DNA of 64,000 nt from Serratia oryzae (GTDB lineage Bacteria > Pseudomonadota > Gammaproteobacteria > Enterobacterales > Enterobacteriaceae), in NCBI RefSeq assembly GCF_001976145.1, contig NZ_MOXD01000006.1, positions 186,001 through 250,000 of the forward strand. The letters run 5' to 3'. Of the stretch, positions 939 to 63,356 are shown piece after piece. Position 1 is the first letter of the stretch, and every line of letters begins with the position of its first letter. The notes under the pieces are model-generated. The model was not told the DNA's origin. It did no database searches and saw only the letters and a program-made list of their open reading frames with translations. The position numbers were made by a program, and so were the translations under genes.

Positions 939-2600
939 ATGTCTACCTCGCGCTTGCAACAACAGTTTATCCGCCTGTGGCAACGCTGCCACGGTCAAGC
1001 CACCGAAACCACGCTGCAGGAACTGGCCGACGTGCTCAATTGCTCGCGCCGTCATGTGCGATCTTTACTCGGGGCCATGCAGCAGCAGGGCTGGCTCACC
1101 TGGCAGGCCGAGGCTGGCCGCGGTAAACGCTCACAGCTCAGCTTCCATTACACCGGCCTGGCACTTCAGCAACAGCGTGCTGAAGAGTTGCTGGAGCAGG
1201 ATAAAATCGATCAACTGGTGCAATTGGTTGGCGACAAAAATGCCGTACGTCAGATGCTGCTTTCTCAACTGGGGCGCAGCTTTCGCCAAGGGAAGCATAT
1301 TCTCCGCGTGCTTTACTATCGTCAGCTTTACAACCTGCTGCCCGGCTCGGCATTACGCCGCTCAGAGACCCATCTGGCGCGGCAGATTTTTAACGGCCTG
1401 ACGCGTATAAATGAGGAAAACGGGGAAATCGAATCCGATCTTTCACACCACTGGCAGGCCGTAACGCCGTTGCATTGGCGCTTTTATCTGCGCCCGGCGA
1501 TCCGCTTCCATCATGGCCGTGAACTGGAGATGGAAGACGTGATCCATTCATTACAGCGGTTGATCCCGCAGCCCCTGTTTTCTCATATCCGCCAGGTCAC
1601 TTCCCCTACACCTTATGTGATCGATGTCCACCTGCACAGCCCGGATTACTGGCTGCCGTGGTTGCTGGGCAGCGTGCATGCCATGATCCTGCCGCGCGAA
1701 TGGCAGAGCCTGCCGGACTTCGCCCGTCATCCGATCGGCACCGGGCCTTACAGCGTGGTGCACAATCATCGCAGCCAGATGAAGATCCATGCCTTTGACG
1801 ATTATTTTGGTTATCGCGCGCTGATTGATGAAGTCAACATCTGGGTGCTGCCAGAGGTGACCGAAGAATTGGTGCATTCCGGCGTGCAATTGCAAGGGGA
1901 CGAAACCAGCAAAAACGAGCTGGAAAGCCGCCTGGAGGAAGGCTGCTATTTTCTGCTGTTTGACCAGCGCTCAACGCTGGCGGCCAACCCTGAAATCCGC
2001 AGTTGGCTAAGCGAATTGATCAACCCCATCGCCCTGCTGAGCCACGCAGGATCGGTATACCAGCGCTATTGGGCACCGGCCTACGGCATTCTGCCACGCT
2101 GGTTGCATAACCGTGCACTGGGGCAACAGCTCAAACCTGCGGGGCTGACGGAACTGACGCTGACGTTCTACGGCGAACACTCGGAATTCCACGCCATCCA
2201 GCAGGCTATCGCTGCCCTACTCAACCAGCATGACATCAGGCTTAACGTGCAGATCATCAATTACGATAGTTGGCATAAAGGTGACGCAAACAGCGATTTA
2301 TGGCTTGGCAGCGCCAACTTCACTCTGCCGTTGGAATTTTCCCTGTTTGCCACGCTGTATGAAATGCCGTTAATTCAGCACTGTTTGAGCTCTGATATCG
2401 CCGAAGATGCCGCGTTGTGGCGCGACAACCGCTTACCGCTGGCGGAGTTCTGCCAGCGTCTGGTCAGTAGCCACCAGTTGCACCCATTGTTTCATCATTG
2501 GCTGCAGTTGCACGGCCAACGCACCATGCGCGGGGTGCGCATGAATACCCTCGGGTGGTTCGATTTTAAATCAGCCTGGTTCGCCCCGCCGGAAACATAA
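939..2600 (+). CDS. sgrR: SgrR, transcriptional regulator of sgrS
   Basis: DNA-binding activator of sgrS during glucose-phosphate stress. The 553-residue protein matches E. coli SgrR (551 aa) end to end. It has an N-terminal winged helix (about residues 5-110, with [11 protein letters not shown]) and a C-terminal SBP_bac_5-like solute-binding domain thought to sense the signal. The C-terminal [16 protein letters not shown] is diagnostic. An ATG lies upstream in frame at 915, but ATG 939 has the better ribosome site (GGAGAG at 923) and matches the family start [10 protein letters not shown]. It is divergent from SgrS/setA and directly upstream of the thiBPQ riboswitch, the conserved enteric order. 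Confidence 0.96.
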
Positions 2601-20349: not shown

Positions 20350-21043
20350 CATTCAACAGGTGCGCGGTGGCTACGGCGCGATCAATATTCTGTGGGACAT
20401 CTCGCTGCAGATCCAGCCAGGGACGGTCACCGCCATCGTCGGGCCGAACGGCGCGGGCAAGACCACGCTGCTGAAAACCATCGCCGGGCTGCTGCCGTTA
20501 AAACAGGGGCAGATTACCTATCAGAACATCGACGTCGGTAAACTTTCCCCCTGGCATACCAAGCGCAGCGGCCTGGCGCTGATCCCGGAAGGGCGCATGA
20601 TTTTCCGCGATATGACGGTCGAAGATAACCTGATTATGGGGGCCTTTCAGAAGGCCAGCCGCCAGCATGTGAAACCGCGTCTGGCAGAAGTTTATGCCAT
20701 ATTTCCACGCCTGGCCGAACGGCAGAAGCAGTTAGCGGGCGTGCTTTCCGGCGGGGAGGCGCAAATGCTGGCGGTGGGCCGCTGTTTAATGTCCGATCCC
20801 AGTATGATCCTGATCGACGAACCTTCTTTGGGCTTAGCCCCGGTGGTGGTTAACGAGCTGTTTGCCTGCTTTGCCCGCCTGCGCGAGCATGGCAAAACCC
20901 TGTTGCTGGTGGAGCAGAACACTCAGTTGTCGATCAAGCTGGCCGATCGGGTCTGCCTAATGCGCAGCGGTAAGATGATCTTTACCAAAGCGGCCAACGA
21001 TATTGATATGGAGGAGTTGCACCGGGCTTATTTTGGGCATTGA
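20342..21043 (+). CDS. ABC transporter ATPase, LivF type
   Basis: Second ATPase subunit, 233 residues. Walker A is GPNGAGKT (about residues 35-42). It also has the LivF-specific LALIPEGRMIFRDMTVEDNL, the signature LSGGEAQMLAVGR and Walker B MILIDEPSLGLAP. Last gene of the operon; the stop at 21043 is followed by about 800 nt without genes that contain the inverted structured elements. Confidence 0.92.
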   Translation: MLNIQQVRGGYGAINILWDISLQIQPGTVTAIVGPNGAGKTTLLKTIAGLLPLKQGQITYQNIDVGKLSPWHTKRSGLALIPEGRMIFRDMTVEDNLIMGAFQKASRQHVKPRLAEVYAIFPRLAERQKQLAGVLSGGEAQMLAVGRCLMSDPSMILIDEPSLGLAPVVVNELFACFARLREHGKTLLLVEQNTQLSIKLADRVCLMRSGKMIFTKAANDIDMEELHRAYFGH

Positions 21044-21184
21044 GTGTTAGTAGGGCGCAGCGTAGTTCGGTTGTGGCTAACCAGTTCCCTCTACATGGGC
21101 GGTCTCTTAAACACAACGCGTTCGTCTATGCAGGCTTGGTTTCATGGGAATTGCCGTAAACAGAGTGCAATTCTATGAAACAAC

Positions 21185-21405
21185 AGTGAGCGGCAATTGC
21201 AGGGCCCAAGGCGGGGCCCTGCACCCGCGCCAACGCTTAACATGTCCTGCCCGCTACGCGGGTACCTTCGCTACGCCCCCGTCGCCGGGCGGGTCGGCTA
21301 CGACAGGCGTCCCTTCCTGTCTCGCCTCAGCCTGCCGTCCATGGCAGGCTGCCCCTGGCAACGGTGCCTTGCTCAGCAGGCCATGATGCGCTCAACGTCA
21401 CCCCC
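21185..21405 (+). repeat. Multi-hairpin structured element, copy 1
   Basis: Four strong hairpins follow each other: GCAGGGCCC/GGGCCCTGC; CCCGC/GCGGG; GACAGG/CCTGTC with loop CGTCCCTT; CAGCCTGCC/GGCAGGCTG with loop GTCCAT. The minus-strand copy at 21490-21710 has the same hairpins in the same order with the same loops but several different, still complementary, stem pairs. No convincing coding frame is present. Boundaries are approximate. The remaining parts of the 21044-21869 gap (21044-21184, 21406-21489, 21711-21869) show nothing I can identify. Confidence 0.75.
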
Positions 21406-21489
21406 CGAATCTGTGAGTACCGGACAACATCGACATAGGTGTTGATAATAGAAATTAAAACAATGCAATAGGTTAGGTGAGCGCTGGTG

Positions 21490-21710
21490 TTGAAGCCATT
21501 GAAGGCGCCGAACGGAGACACAGCGCATAGGCGACCGCGCCATGGACGGCGCGGTCAGGCGAGACAGTCAGGGACGACTATCGTAGCCGGCCGTTATGCG
21601 CTGTGGCGGAGTGAGGGGAGCCGCGCAGCGGCCGCCTGATATGGCGAAGGCGCGGATTGCCAAGGGCCCCGCCTAGGGCCCTTGGCTCGGTCGCGTTCAC
21701 CCTGCTGCCG
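21490..21710 (-). repeat. Multi-hairpin structured element, copy 2 (inverted)
   Basis: Read on the minus strand this copy gives CCAAGGGCCC/GGGCCCTTGG; GCCGC/GCGGC; GATAGT/ACTGTC with loop CGTCCCTG; GACCGCGCC/GGCGCGGTC with loop GTCCAT. Each hairpin corresponds to one in copy 1. The two copies point towards each other with about 85 nt between them and together fill the gap between the convergent liv-type and acyl-CoA operons. Confidence 0.75.
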
Positions 21711-21869
21711 AATGAACACAGAATGTTTAGCGACCGAAATAAATACTCATCCGATATGTAAATAAGAGACAGCCCACGGGGAGAGAACATCACATCTAGC
21801 ATCTACCCCATAATGATGGTTTAACTCAGCGACACTAAGATCAGAGCGAGGATTTCCCCTCCCAGACCG

Positions 21870-23987
21870 CTATTCTGCATTAAGACTGGCAAATGTCTGC
21901 CCTTGCTCCACCAAACGGATAAGCAACGGTGAAGGACGCCAAAACTGCGGATCTTCGGCGGCAAAAGTGGTGATATCATCCAATACCCGCGCCAAACCAA
22001 TCTTATCAGCATAATACAACGGCCCGCCGCGATAACGCGGGAAGCCGTAACCAGCCAGCAGCACCACATCAACGTCCAATGGGCGCAGCGCAATGCCCTC
22101 GGCAAGCAGGTTAGCACCTTCGTTAATCATCGCCGCCAGATAGCGACGCACGATCTCTTCGGCGCTGAAGGGCCGCGGCGTGACGCCCGCACGCTCGCGC
22201 TCACGGGCGACAATCTCCAGCACCGCCGGATCCTGCACCCCATGGTTTGAACCAGGCTCATAACGATACCAACCGCGCCCGCTTTTTTGCCCGAACCAAC
22301 CCTGTTCACACAGGCGATCGGCAATCTGCACGTAACGCTCCTGCGGATCCCGCTGCGCCGCCCGGCGCTTGCGCGTCGCCCAGGCAATATCACCACCGGC
22401 CACGTCGAGGATCTGGAAAGGCCCCATGGCAAAACCGAATTCACGCACCGCGGTGTCGATCTGGTACGGCGAAGCGCCGTCCTCCAGCATTGCCTCTGCC
22501 GCCCGCCGGTAGACGGACATGATGCGGTTGCCGATAAAACCGTCGCAGATGCCGGTACGCACTGGAACTTTACCGAGCCTGCGGGCCAGCACCACAGCAC
22601 TGGCAATCACCTCAGCCGCTGCCTGCGGCGGCACCACGATCTCCAGCAGACGCATCACCGGTGCTGGGGAAAAGAAGTGTAAGCCGATAACCGCTTGCGG
22701 CCTGTTGGTCACCGCTGCAATGGCAGCAATATCCAGATAAGAAGTATTGCTGGCCAGGATCGCACCGGGTTTGCAGTGGCTATCTAACTGACGGAAAACC
22801 GCCTGCTTGGCCGCCAGATCCTCATACACCGCTTCAACCACCAAATCGGCCGTGGCCAAATCCCGGTATTCTGTGGTTCCGCGCAATTTCGCCAGGCGTG
22901 CGGCGGCGGCCGTAGCCGAAAGCCGCTTTTTACTCACCCGTTGACGATAGAACTCCTCTACTCGACTCAGGCCCGCTGCCAGGCTCTGCTCATCACGTTC
23001 GAGCAAAGTAACCTGCAGATCCGCTTCCAGCATCACCACCGCAATACCCGCCCCCATGGTGCCGCCGCCAATCACCCCTGCCTGGCTAAAAGCAGCTATC
23101 GCCAACCCGGTGGTATCCGGCAGTTTGGCAGCGGCGCGTTCGGCCTGAAAGGCGTATAACAGGGCCCGATGCTGCGGGCTCGCCAGGCAGCGTTGGAATT
23201 GTGCAGCTTCAAACTGGCAACCTGCCGCAAACGGCTGTTCGCAGGCAGCGGCCACGCAGTCAATAATCAACGCCGGGGAAAACAGACCGCGAAACTGCGT
23301 TGGCAATTTGGTGCGCGCCGCATCAATCGCCGCCTGTTGGGCTGCCGAATCGGCAAGCCGGGTAGTGAGTTCACTGCTGCGGCGCACTCCACAGCGATCG
23401 GCCAGCAGTTCGTGGGCATAAACCAAGCCATCAACGCGGGCATCCAACCCCAGCCGATCCACCATCCCCAGTTCTAGCGCCTGTTCGGCAGACAGCGGGC
23501 GGCCACTGAGCATCAGATCCAAAGCCGCTTCCGCCCCAATCAGCCGCACGCTGCGCTGGCTGCCCCCGGCCCCGGGCAGCAGCCCCAGATTAACTTCCGG
23601 CAACCCCAAACGGCTGCCCTTGACCGCCAGCCGGTAATGCGCCGCCATGGCAACCTCTAACCCACCGCCCAGTGCATTACCCGCAATAGCCGCAATCACC
23701 GGCTTCGTGCAGGTTTCGATTTGATCGCAGACCTCTCGCAGCAGCGGCGGCTGGCGCGGTTGATTGAATTCACGGATATCCGCCCCGGCAGCAAAGTTCT
23801 TTCCTGACCCCAGTAGCAGCAGCGCGTGGATTTGTTCCTCACTCTGCGCTTGCCGCAGCGCCGCCAGCAGCCCGCGACGCACGCGCAAACCCAACGCATT
23901 GACCGGTGGATTATCGAGGATCACAATCAGTATGTTGCCACTGCGTTCAAGATGCAGGCCCCGATCAGGCTGATGATTATCTGGCAT
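21870..23987 (-). CDS. Bifunctional enoyl-CoA hydratase / 3-hydroxyacyl-CoA dehydrogenase (FadJ/FadB-like)
   Basis: Two-step beta-oxidation enzyme: hydrates trans-2-enoyl-CoA and oxidises the (S)-3-hydroxyacyl-CoA with NAD. The 705-residue layout is like FadJ. A crotonase domain (1-190) has GKNFAAGADIREF and GNALGGGLEVAMAAHYR, including the catalytic Glu region. An NAD-binding domain from about residue 300 has GVIGGGTMGAGIA and the dehydrogenase motif GLHFFSPAP. A C-terminal dehydrogenase domain ends at KIGLARVLDD. ATG 23987 follows GGAGGAGG and overlaps the CoA-transferase gene by 11 nt. No intact partner thiolase gene is nearby. It differs enough from fadJ/fadB to be a paralogue. Confidence 0.9.
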   Translation of the reverse strand: MPDNHQPDRGLHLERSGNILIVILDNPPVNALGLRVRRGLLAALRQAQSEEQIHALLLLGSGKNFAAGADIREFNQPRQPPLLREVCDQIETCTKPVIAAIAGNALGGGLEVAMAAHYRLAVKGSRLGLPEVNLGLLPGAGGSQRSVRLIGAEAALDLMLSGRPLSAEQALELGMVDRLGLDARVDGLVYAHELLADRCGVRRSSELTTRLADSAAQQAAIDAARTKLPTQFRGLFSPALIIDCVAAACEQPFAAGCQFEAAQFQRCLASPQHRALLYAFQAERAAAKLPDTTGLAIAAFSQAGVIGGGTMGAGIAVVMLEADLQVTLLERDEQSLAAGLSRVEEFYRQRVSKKRLSATAAAARLAKLRGTTEYRDLATADLVVEAVYEDLAAKQAVFRQLDSHCKPGAILASNTSYLDIAAIAAVTNRPQAVIGLHFFSPAPVMRLLEIVVPPQAAAEVIASAVVLARRLGKVPVRTGICDGFIGNRIMSVYRRAAEAMLEDGASPYQIDTAVREFGFAMGPFQILDVAGGDIAWATRKRRAAQRDPQERYVQIADRLCEQGWFGQKSGRGWYRYEPGSNHGVQDPAVLEIVARERERAGVTPRPFSAEEIVRRYLAAMINEGANLLAEGIALRPLDVDVVLLAGYGFPRYRGGPLYYADKIGLARVLDDITTFAAEDPQFWRPSPLLIRLVEQGQTFASLNAE

Positions 23988-62132: not shown

Positions 62133-63251
62133 TTAGCGCGTCAGATCGTCAAAAAACTTTTTCACGCCGTCGAAAAAGCTTTTCGAACGCGGGCTGTTCT
62201 TATCCCCGGAAGGGCCACCAAGGCTTTCTTCCAGCTCTTTCAACAGCTGTTTCTGCTTATCGTTGAGATTCACCGGCGTCTCGACCACCACACGGCACAG
62301 CAGGTCACCCTGGCTACCACCGCGTACCGATTTCACACCTTTACCACGCATGCGGAACAGTTTACCGGTCTGGGTTTCAGCCGGGACTTTCAGCTTCACT
62401 CGGCCATCGAGCGTTGGGACTTCAATCTCCCCCCCCAACGCCGCCATAGCAAAGTTAATCGGCACTTCGCAATACAGGTTGTTGCCTTCACGCTCAAAAA
62501 TCGGGTGCGCCTTCACCTGCACCTGCACGTACAGATCGCCCGCTGGAGCACCGTGCTCACCGGCTTCCCCTTCACCTGCCAAACGGATACGATCGCCGGT
62601 ATCAACACCTGCCGGGATTTTCACCGACAGCGTTTTGGATCTCTCTACCCGGCCATGGCCATGGCATTTGTTGCACGGATCTTTGATGATCTGGCCGCGC
62701 CCATGGCAATGCGGACAGGCCTGCTGTACGGTGAAAAACCCTTGGCGCATCTGCACCTGGCCCTGACCATGGCAGGTCGGACAGGTGACCGGCGAACTGC
62801 CGGGCTTGGCACCGCTGCCGTGGCAGACATCGCACTCTTCCAGCGTCGGGATACGGATCTCTTTGGTCACACCGCGCACGGCTTCTTCCAGCGTCAGATC
62901 CATGTTGTAACGCAGATCTGAACCCCGGCTGGCACGCTGACGGCGACCACCACCGAAAATGTCGCCAAACACGTCACCAAAGATATCGCTAAAATCGGCC
63001 CCAGCGCCGCCGCCGCCCATGCCACCTTGTTCAAAGGCGGCATGACCATACTGATCGTAAGCAGCACGCTTTTGATCGTCGGTCAGGATCTCGTAGGCTT
63101 CTTTAACTTCTTTGAATTTGGTTTCGGCGTCTTTTTCCTGATTACGGTCAGGGTGATACTTCATCGCCAGGCGTTTGTACGCCTTTTTGATCTCACGCTC
63201 ATCTGCCGTTTTGGCGACGCCGAGCACCTCGTAATAATCTTTCTTCGCCAT
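62133..63251 (-). CDS. dnaJ: Chaperone DnaJ
   Basis: Hsp40 co-chaperone that stimulates DnaK ATPase and presents substrates. The 372 residues (E. coli 376) show the J domain with HPD in KYHPDRN near residue 33 and a Gly/Phe-rich linker (GGMGGGGAG...[10 protein letters not shown]). Four zinc repeats follow ([32 protein letters not shown]), then the C-terminal substrate domains. ATG 63251 is the family start (MAKKDYYE). It is 105 nt after dnaK. Confidence 0.98.
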
Positions 63252-63276
63252 TATTTCTCTTACCCTTAACATGCGT

Positions 63277-63308
63277 GCACGGGCGTAGAGTTGCCTCGAC
63301 GCCCGTGC
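63277..63308. other. Hairpin in the dnaK-dnaJ intergenic region
   Basis: GCACGGGCGT pairs perfectly with ACGCCCGTGC around a 12-base loop. There is no U-run, so it may act as a partial terminator or message stabiliser that sets dnaJ below dnaK. Role inferred. Confidence 0.5.
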
Positions 63309-63356
63309 TGGTTTCCGGTTACGGCCTGTGGCCGCACCGTGCCCGCTTAAGGGCGA

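Follow-up and report, generated by a model that had tools for sequence, protein, structure and literature searches.

A mobile repeat of Serratia oryzae carries paired TwoAYGGAY-like RNA modules with loops resembling CsrA sites

Introduction

What are the two inverted multi-hairpin arms that lie between a pair of convergent genes in Serratia oryzae, and what has kept their stems paired while the stem sequences changed? The locus was analyzed within a window of 64,000 nucleotides (contig NZ_MOXD01000006.1, positions 186,001 to 250,000), where it separates a livF-like gene on the plus strand from a 3-hydroxyacyl-CoA dehydrogenase/enoyl-CoA hydratase-like gene on the minus strand, both names being read from the open reading frames. 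A preliminary description placed the arms at 21185-21405 and 21490-21710, recognized no RNA family in them, and proposed either a dispersed structured repeat or a bidirectional terminator or processing element.

Results

Extent and parts of the element

The coordinates of the two arms hold: an inverted-repeat search and an alignment agree on them, with inverted segments at 21292-21345/21539-21592 (83% complementary) and 21201-21220/21663-21682 (95% complementary), and the left arm (arm A) aligns with the right arm (arm B) over 266 columns at a mean column identity of 76%. The arms stand as described; the extent given for the feature was too small. Both belong to a repeat element of 673 bp (21100-21772, no strand assigned), delimited by the homology borders of other copies, by end motifs and by an empty site in genome G003. 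With a 701-bp query, homology in the other copies reached to about 21102 and 21769, the exception being one weak copy that extends to 21782. The end-motif scan placed the terminal sequences at 21100-21119 (plus strand, CGGTCTCTTAAACACAACGC) and at 21753-21772 (minus strand, CTGTCTCTTATTTACATATC when read inward).

Each arm consists of a three-way junction with two hairpins, together with two outer hairpins. From the left end, arm A holds an outer stem, AATTGCCG ... CGGCAATT (21149-21198, no strand assigned), which was read directly and is also found in the G092 and G031 copies; hairpin H1 (21199-21222, minus strand), the GGGCCC hairpin of the preliminary description, supported by reading, fold and alignment; hairpin H2 (21250-21262, minus strand), its CCCGC/GCGGG hairpin, supported by reading and alignment; and module A, a TwoAYGGAY-like three-way junction on the outward, minus strand (21265-21374). 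Within this module, direct reading and the alignment of copies define hairpin b (21302-21321, minus strand), whose loop includes AGGGAC, and hairpin a (21328-21351, minus strand), whose loop is AUGGAC. Arm B holds the corresponding module B on the outward, plus strand (21510-21617), with the closing stem P1 (21520-21604, plus strand; 21520-21529 paired with 21595-21604), defined by folds and by its covariation, and with hairpins a (21533-21556, loop AUGGAC) and b (21563-21582, loop AGGGAC), both on the plus strand and supported by reading, alignment and covariation. Hairpins H2 (21620-21632) and H1 (21659-21686) of arm B, both on the plus strand, are supported by the covariation of the outer hairpins; the outer stem CGGTCGC ... 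GCGACCG (21688-21736, no strand assigned) was read directly and takes the compensated form CGGTTG ... CAACCG in the L067 copy.

Direct reading also recovered the stems that had been quoted for the GTCCAT-loop hairpin. In arm A, CAGCCTGCC (21328-21336) pairs with GGCAGGCTG (21343-21351), and in arm B, GACCGCGCC (21533-21541) pairs with GGCGCGGTC (21548-21556); the two stems differ at positions 1, 3, 5 and 6, and all four changes are compensated.

Copies in the genome and conservation of the fold

The proposal of a dispersed structured repeat was borne out by more copies in the genome and the genus, with compensated stem changes. Arm A as a query matched ten further places in the genome (E < 1e-8) and arm B matched eight (E < 1e-6), each set including the other arm in the window. 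This genome carries eight clear loci, two of which are fragments, and one weak locus; the three loci that retain both arms have them in the order A then B, inverted. In a survey of the genus, the repeat was present in four of seven genomes and absent from three. Blastn gave no match between 21050-21850 and plasmids, phages or E. coli, and a relative (L189) aligned with E. coli along no more than 36% of its length.

Folding of the whole arms gave z scores of -2.0 for arm A (7 of 200 shuffles folded as well) and -5.6 for arm B (0 of 200); for the junction parts alone, on the outward strands, the values were -3.95 and -5.4. The analysis of covariation started from 53 distinct copies of the branched region, from which four truncated or rearranged rows were removed, leaving 49, and then one distant row, leaving the 48 of alignment A2. 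Three elements made up the scored structure: P1, hairpin a with 9 bp, and hairpin b with 7 bp on a base of 3 bp. Of the cells of this structure, 92.9% were paired, compared with 78.8% in shuffles and at most 45.4% when partners were slid by one to three columns, a comparison that favors the tested structure because it was derived from the same sequences. Sixteen of the 26 pairs had changed on both sides (shuffle mean, 12.3), a value reached by 0 of 500 shuffles, although such shuffle counts are not probabilities because the copies are related; the covariation score was 0.382 against 0.141 for shuffles, and the number of further pair types was not above that of shuffles (36 versus 36.8). The outer hairpins H1 and H2 of arm B were scored in 28 of 33 B copies (of the five that were excluded, four were G031 copies with an insert), where 99.7% of cells were paired (at most 62.5% when slid) and 9 of 14 pairs had changed on both sides, which 2 of 500 shuffles reached; again, further pair types did not exceed those of shuffles. 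The structure of the repeat core is shown by covariation to have been maintained. Chance hairpins were ruled out by the covariation and the further copies.

Structure of this kind could also be kept by selection or conversion acting on DNA, with palindromes or foldback arms preserved through template switching or because a DNA-binding protein or the transposase requires them. Each arm is an inverted copy of the other and both strands of the junction modules fold well, as this account would have it. P1 is less easily accommodated: it is the weakest stem, with 82.4% of cells paired, yet six of its seven pairs had changed on both sides, and its sides lie about 70 nucleotides apart, a pattern that simple hairpin repair would not give.

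Distribution beyond the genus

The preliminary description had called for a covariance-model search, and one was run with R1, a model built from alignment A2 (48 arm copies); it scored module A at 95.9 bits and module B at 120.7 bits, both being in the training set, and it found matches in further genomes of the family, order and class samples. Matches were obtained in at least 41 of 295 family genomes (at least 24 of 154 genera), at least 10 of 394 genomes of the order sample and at least 8 of 369 of the class sample; these counts are lower bounds because the samples overlap, each holds the genome of the window, and 9 to 13 candidates were scored per genome. As a control, 59 decoy loci (438 kb) sharing an 18-base string with the element yielded one partial match (E 0.13) and none with a lower value.

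In E. coli, R1 matched weakly (22.8 bits, E 2.2e-4 in 22 kb) in the gap between yegH and asmA (L229 1376-1486, plus strand), where the Rfam score was 28.7 bits, under the cut-off; this is a lead only. The loops in this match are AUGGAU and AGGGAU. R1 had no match in three other loci examined alongside, and no open-licence paper was found that links CsrA with yegH and asmA.

In G092, the A-B core occurs in tandem units of 652 to 661 bp with no definable terminal repeats. TwoAYGGAY-like modules were also seen in tandem arrays at L185 (170-1609, minus strand), L183 (169-1611, plus strand), L174 (1777-2508, plus strand), L066 and L073, with spacings among these loci of about 666, 666, 312 and 550 bp.

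Relation to TwoAYGGAY

A scan of Rfam at curated cut-offs missed the element. At relaxed thresholds, both arms matched TwoAYGGAY (RF01731) below its gathering score of 43 bits: arm B on the plus strand with 36 bits (21510-21614; E 0.00068, or about 7e-4) and arm A on the minus strand with 30 bits (21290-21357; E 0.016), the third match being to another family with an E value of 0.36. The statement that the arms match no RNA family therefore has to be revised, and the matching strands are opposite to those assigned in the preliminary description. TwoAYGGAY also matched below the cut-off in six of nine further loci, and the cut-off was passed by 5 of 20 R1-found loci and by five of eight class-level loci.

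The window arms share the junction fold with TwoAYGGAY, and each has two hairpins with (A)NGGA-type loops, in the same order and on the same strand in both arms. Hairpin a has an AYGGAY loop, AUGGAC, in both arms; the AGGGAC of hairpin b is not AYGGAY. R1-found loci above the cut-off make the series continuous with accepted members of the family, and because these loci pass while the window copies formally fail, we regard the arms as a divergent branch next to TwoAYGGAY; judged by their scores, they stand near the family and not formally in it. A tandem G-A pair variant of stem b (A2 columns 58/59 and 70/71) was observed in 8 of 48 copies, three of arm A and five of arm B, and tandem GAs in a TwoAYGGAY stem are mentioned in the available part of a 2014 paper (PMC4333381). 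Here, unlike in the portions of the published descriptions available to us, the modules form a back-to-back pair within a mobile repeat, accompanied by two further hairpins. A list of 2010 gives TwoAYGGAY as probably an RNA (PMC2864571, available part), and it has so far been an RNA family without known function; no description of it as mobile or paired was found in the open-licence literature.

Mobility and transposon ends

The repeat family moves, as shown by empty sites, by an opposite orientation in G006 and by end duplications in some copies. At the locus of the window, both neighbor genes are present in G003 without the element, the matching flanks being 75 bp apart, and G006 carries only the A half, in the opposite orientation. 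In this G006 copy (L029 ~1390, G006:C1), the expected place of arm B holds another sequence, which looks like an ERIC repeat. None of the other six genomes of the genus has the L032 element of G006 at the orthologous position; the matching flanks there lie 65 to 256 bp apart, and divergence beside the insertion prevents alignment of the exact joint.

Inverted motifs mark the two borders: CGGTCTCTTAAACACAA, beginning at 21100, and CTGTCTCTTATTTACAT, read inward from 21772. They resemble the ends of IS50/Tn5. Among 30 loci scanned, many of them fragments, both ends were recognizable in four. Direct repeats at the ends were 10/10 (L032), 8/9 (L044), 6/9 (L041) and 4/9 (the window copy), against a background in which unrelated flanks reach 6/9 and 4/10. 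Two of the four copies, L032 and L044, thus have a target duplication, since 10/10 and 8/9 exceed unrelated flanks, and that of the window copy is not recognizable; at the level of the family, the target-site duplications and empty sites of a MITE are present.

The ends differ between genera while the core stays the same. In G031 and G259, both from a different genus (g26), this A-B core is bounded by TAATGC..GTCAGTTA and TAATGC..CTTAAG ends, presumably IS4-like. Both of these ends were found in 7 of 12 loci scanned, and six of the seven have 11- to 12-bp duplications (12/12 four times, 11/11 and 10/11); the seventh has 7/12, where unrelated flanks reach at most 7/11 or 8/12. Neither TAATGC-type end was found at the G022 loci L065 and L168 or the G167 locus L172.

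A search for a partner transposase with DDE_Tnp_1 gave no match in G000 or G031 (the control matched in 9 of 14) and six in G006, none with element ends nearby; Dimer_Tnp_Tn5 had no match anywhere, including in the controls. Two long open reading frames viewed in G006 look IS1182-like. Like IS50/Tn5-like and IS4-like MITEs, the element is short, has no transposase gene, and has terminal repeats and target duplications; it differs from them in having one structured core with two types of ends and no partner transposase in G000 or G031.

Loops, strand and CsrA

Because both strands of the modules fold well, folding does not tell which strand is used; the outward strand is indicated by the Rfam match and by the loops. 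On that strand, the loop of hairpin a in 49 copies is A-N-GGA-N in 44, AGGAC in four and ACGGCC in one, so that positions 2 and 6 vary while the A and the GGA hardly do; the loop of hairpin b is AGGGAN in 48 and AGAGAC in one. GGA is thus present in 48 of 49 training copies at either loop. Among model-found copies, 53 of 63 have a strict A-N-GGA within loop a and only 39 of 63 have one within loop b; in held-out copies from 31 genomes, a plain GGA in or beside the loop was found in 60 of 61 (loop a) and 57 of 61 (loop b), two rows of a training locus having been dropped and one place being counted twice. The counts for model-found and held-out copies are to be read with the fact that R1 itself scores loop positions.

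The binding site of CsrA/RsmA is an ANGGAN hexaloop, with the consensus RUACARGGAUGU (review PMC7652899, available sections). Module B presents two such hexaloops, AUGGAC and AGGGAC, and module A presents AUGGAC, its hairpin b having AGGGAC in an 8-nucleotide loop; csrA is present in the genome. With mostly A-N-GGA on the outward strands, the loops look like CsrA docking sites, and binding of CsrA is predicted from them as the best mechanism available. The stems of the element, at 7 to 9 bp, are longer than those of most hairpins selected by CsrA SELEX, which have four or fewer contiguous pairs (PMC7652899, available sections). CsrA binding by TwoAYGGAY was predicted from motif matches in 2014 (PMC4333381, available part). 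No description of CsrA-binding MITEs was found in the open-licence literature, and a term search of a review of MITEs (PMC10969869) returned neither CsrA nor TwoAYGGAY.

Conservation as DNA draws further support from the absence of a significant G-U excess on either strand (G-U versus A-C on the outward strand, 38 versus 26 distinct contexts, p 0.17) and from the palindromic target sequences in which IS4-like copies sit (e.g., L072, L077 and L218). It does not account for the kept GGA loops or for related loci scoring above an RNA family's cut-off, and we consider it distinctly unlikely. A somewhat better case, still on the unlikely side, can be made for MITE hairpins that act as mere structure at mRNA 3' ends, in stability or processing, like REP/BIME or YPAL and without CsrA. 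The strongly paired stems and the placing of copies at gene 3' ends are what this would predict, and Yersinia YPAL is inserted near dyad symmetry and cotranscribed with upstream genes, possibly affecting RNA stability (PMC2229807, available part). Left unexplained are the loops, which keep A and GGA while adjacent stem pairs change, and the match to one RNA family with the strand fixed.

Arrangement, genomic place and transcription signals

The placing of the window copy between convergent genes was described correctly and is common in the family: of 37 copies from eight chosen genomes, 24 lie between convergent, 13 between tandem and none between divergent genes, the classes being crude and based on open reading frames. 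In the window, 8 of 49 neighbor gene pairs are convergent, a small background. Since IS4-like copies sit in palindromic targets, target choice may explain the position without selection. Among module neighbors within 400 nucleotides in one locus set, seven pairs face outward, none inward, and five are on the same strand. Module A points to the left and module B to the right, so whichever side RNA comes in from, it includes one of the two in sense; this outward facing is our explanation for the inverted pairing of the modules.

A bidirectional terminator or processing element for two convergent operons, the second suggestion of the preliminary description, would suit a place between two convergent genes, and a sequence resembling a terminator hairpin lies at the empty site of G003. 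Terminator-like sites, a G+C-rich stem followed by a T run, numbered zero in 20950-21900; moreover, the element recurs at unrelated loci and is absent at the locus of the window in G003. These results make such a role highly improbable. A promoter scan of the element gave one 9-of-12 site (21421-21449, plus strand; shuffles give 0.6) and no convincing promoter, the center of the element not being conserved as one.

Other Rfam matches

A match to AaHKsRNA22 (RF02902), an Aggregatibacter sRNA family, directly adjoins the module, downstream and on the same strand, in L176 (1414-1509, minus strand; 40.4 bits, cut-off 39.8) and in L072, a G031 copy, within its outer part (1414-1508, minus strand; 38.4 bits, under the same cut-off of 39.8). 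It may be part of the same RNA as the module, but the window copy has no match. In the literature on AaHKsRNAs, PMC9577009 concerns another family, as far as its available part goes. Elsewhere in the window, Rfam matches were observed to the tpke11 sRNA (63250-63320, minus strand; 73.4 bits, cut-off 43) and to DapZ (RF02551; 49943-50019, minus strand; 58 bits, barely above the cut-off of 56).

Discussion

The explanation that we favor, to which we give an even chance, is that the locus is a copy of a nonautonomous (MITE-like) transposable element whose cargo of back-to-back TwoAYGGAY-type modules would bind CsrA/RsmA as a decoy or a 3'-end tag. The role of the cargo is probably one of these two. 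RNA reading through from either convergent neighbor would contain the antisense of one module first and then the other module in sense, and any transcript of the element would expose two GGA hairpins. The exposed hairpins could bind CsrA/RsmA, serving as a decoy or marking the 3' ends of mRNAs with a CsrA tag, and the inverted pairing would let the cargo work in either orientation of insertion.

The likeness to the CsrB, CsrC and RsmZ sRNAs lies in the GGA motifs in hairpin loops and the predicted binding of CsrA (PMC7652899, available sections); unlike these sRNAs, the modules have two GGA hairpins rather than many, a branched fold, dispersed copies and no promoter of their own that could be seen. 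The element resembles YPAL/RU-2, ERIC and REP/BIME in being a palindromic, mobile, intergenic repeat, whereas YPAL (about 168 bp) and ERIC (about 127 bp) are shorter and have no paired modules in the available parts of their descriptions (PMC2229807 and PMC2267715).

More tentatively, and with considerable doubt, we propose a class of transposable elements that would spread CsrA decoys: a bidirectional pair of two-site CsrA-binding RNAs at gene 3' ends, where transcripts arriving from either direction would expose one module. In Enterobacterales, transposon ends of at least two kinds would carry the pair, and some genera would have amplified it into tandem arrays. If this is true, copy number would tune the free CsrA in the cell.

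In conclusion, the element is a case of one structured core travelling between two unlike sets of transposon ends. Now that relatives of TwoAYGGAY, with loops that fit CsrA, are seen to travel in pairs on a mobile repeat located at the 3' ends of genes, the role of this family becomes directly testable. A role in CsrA binding, if true, would connect bacterial repeat elements with a global posttranscriptional regulator.
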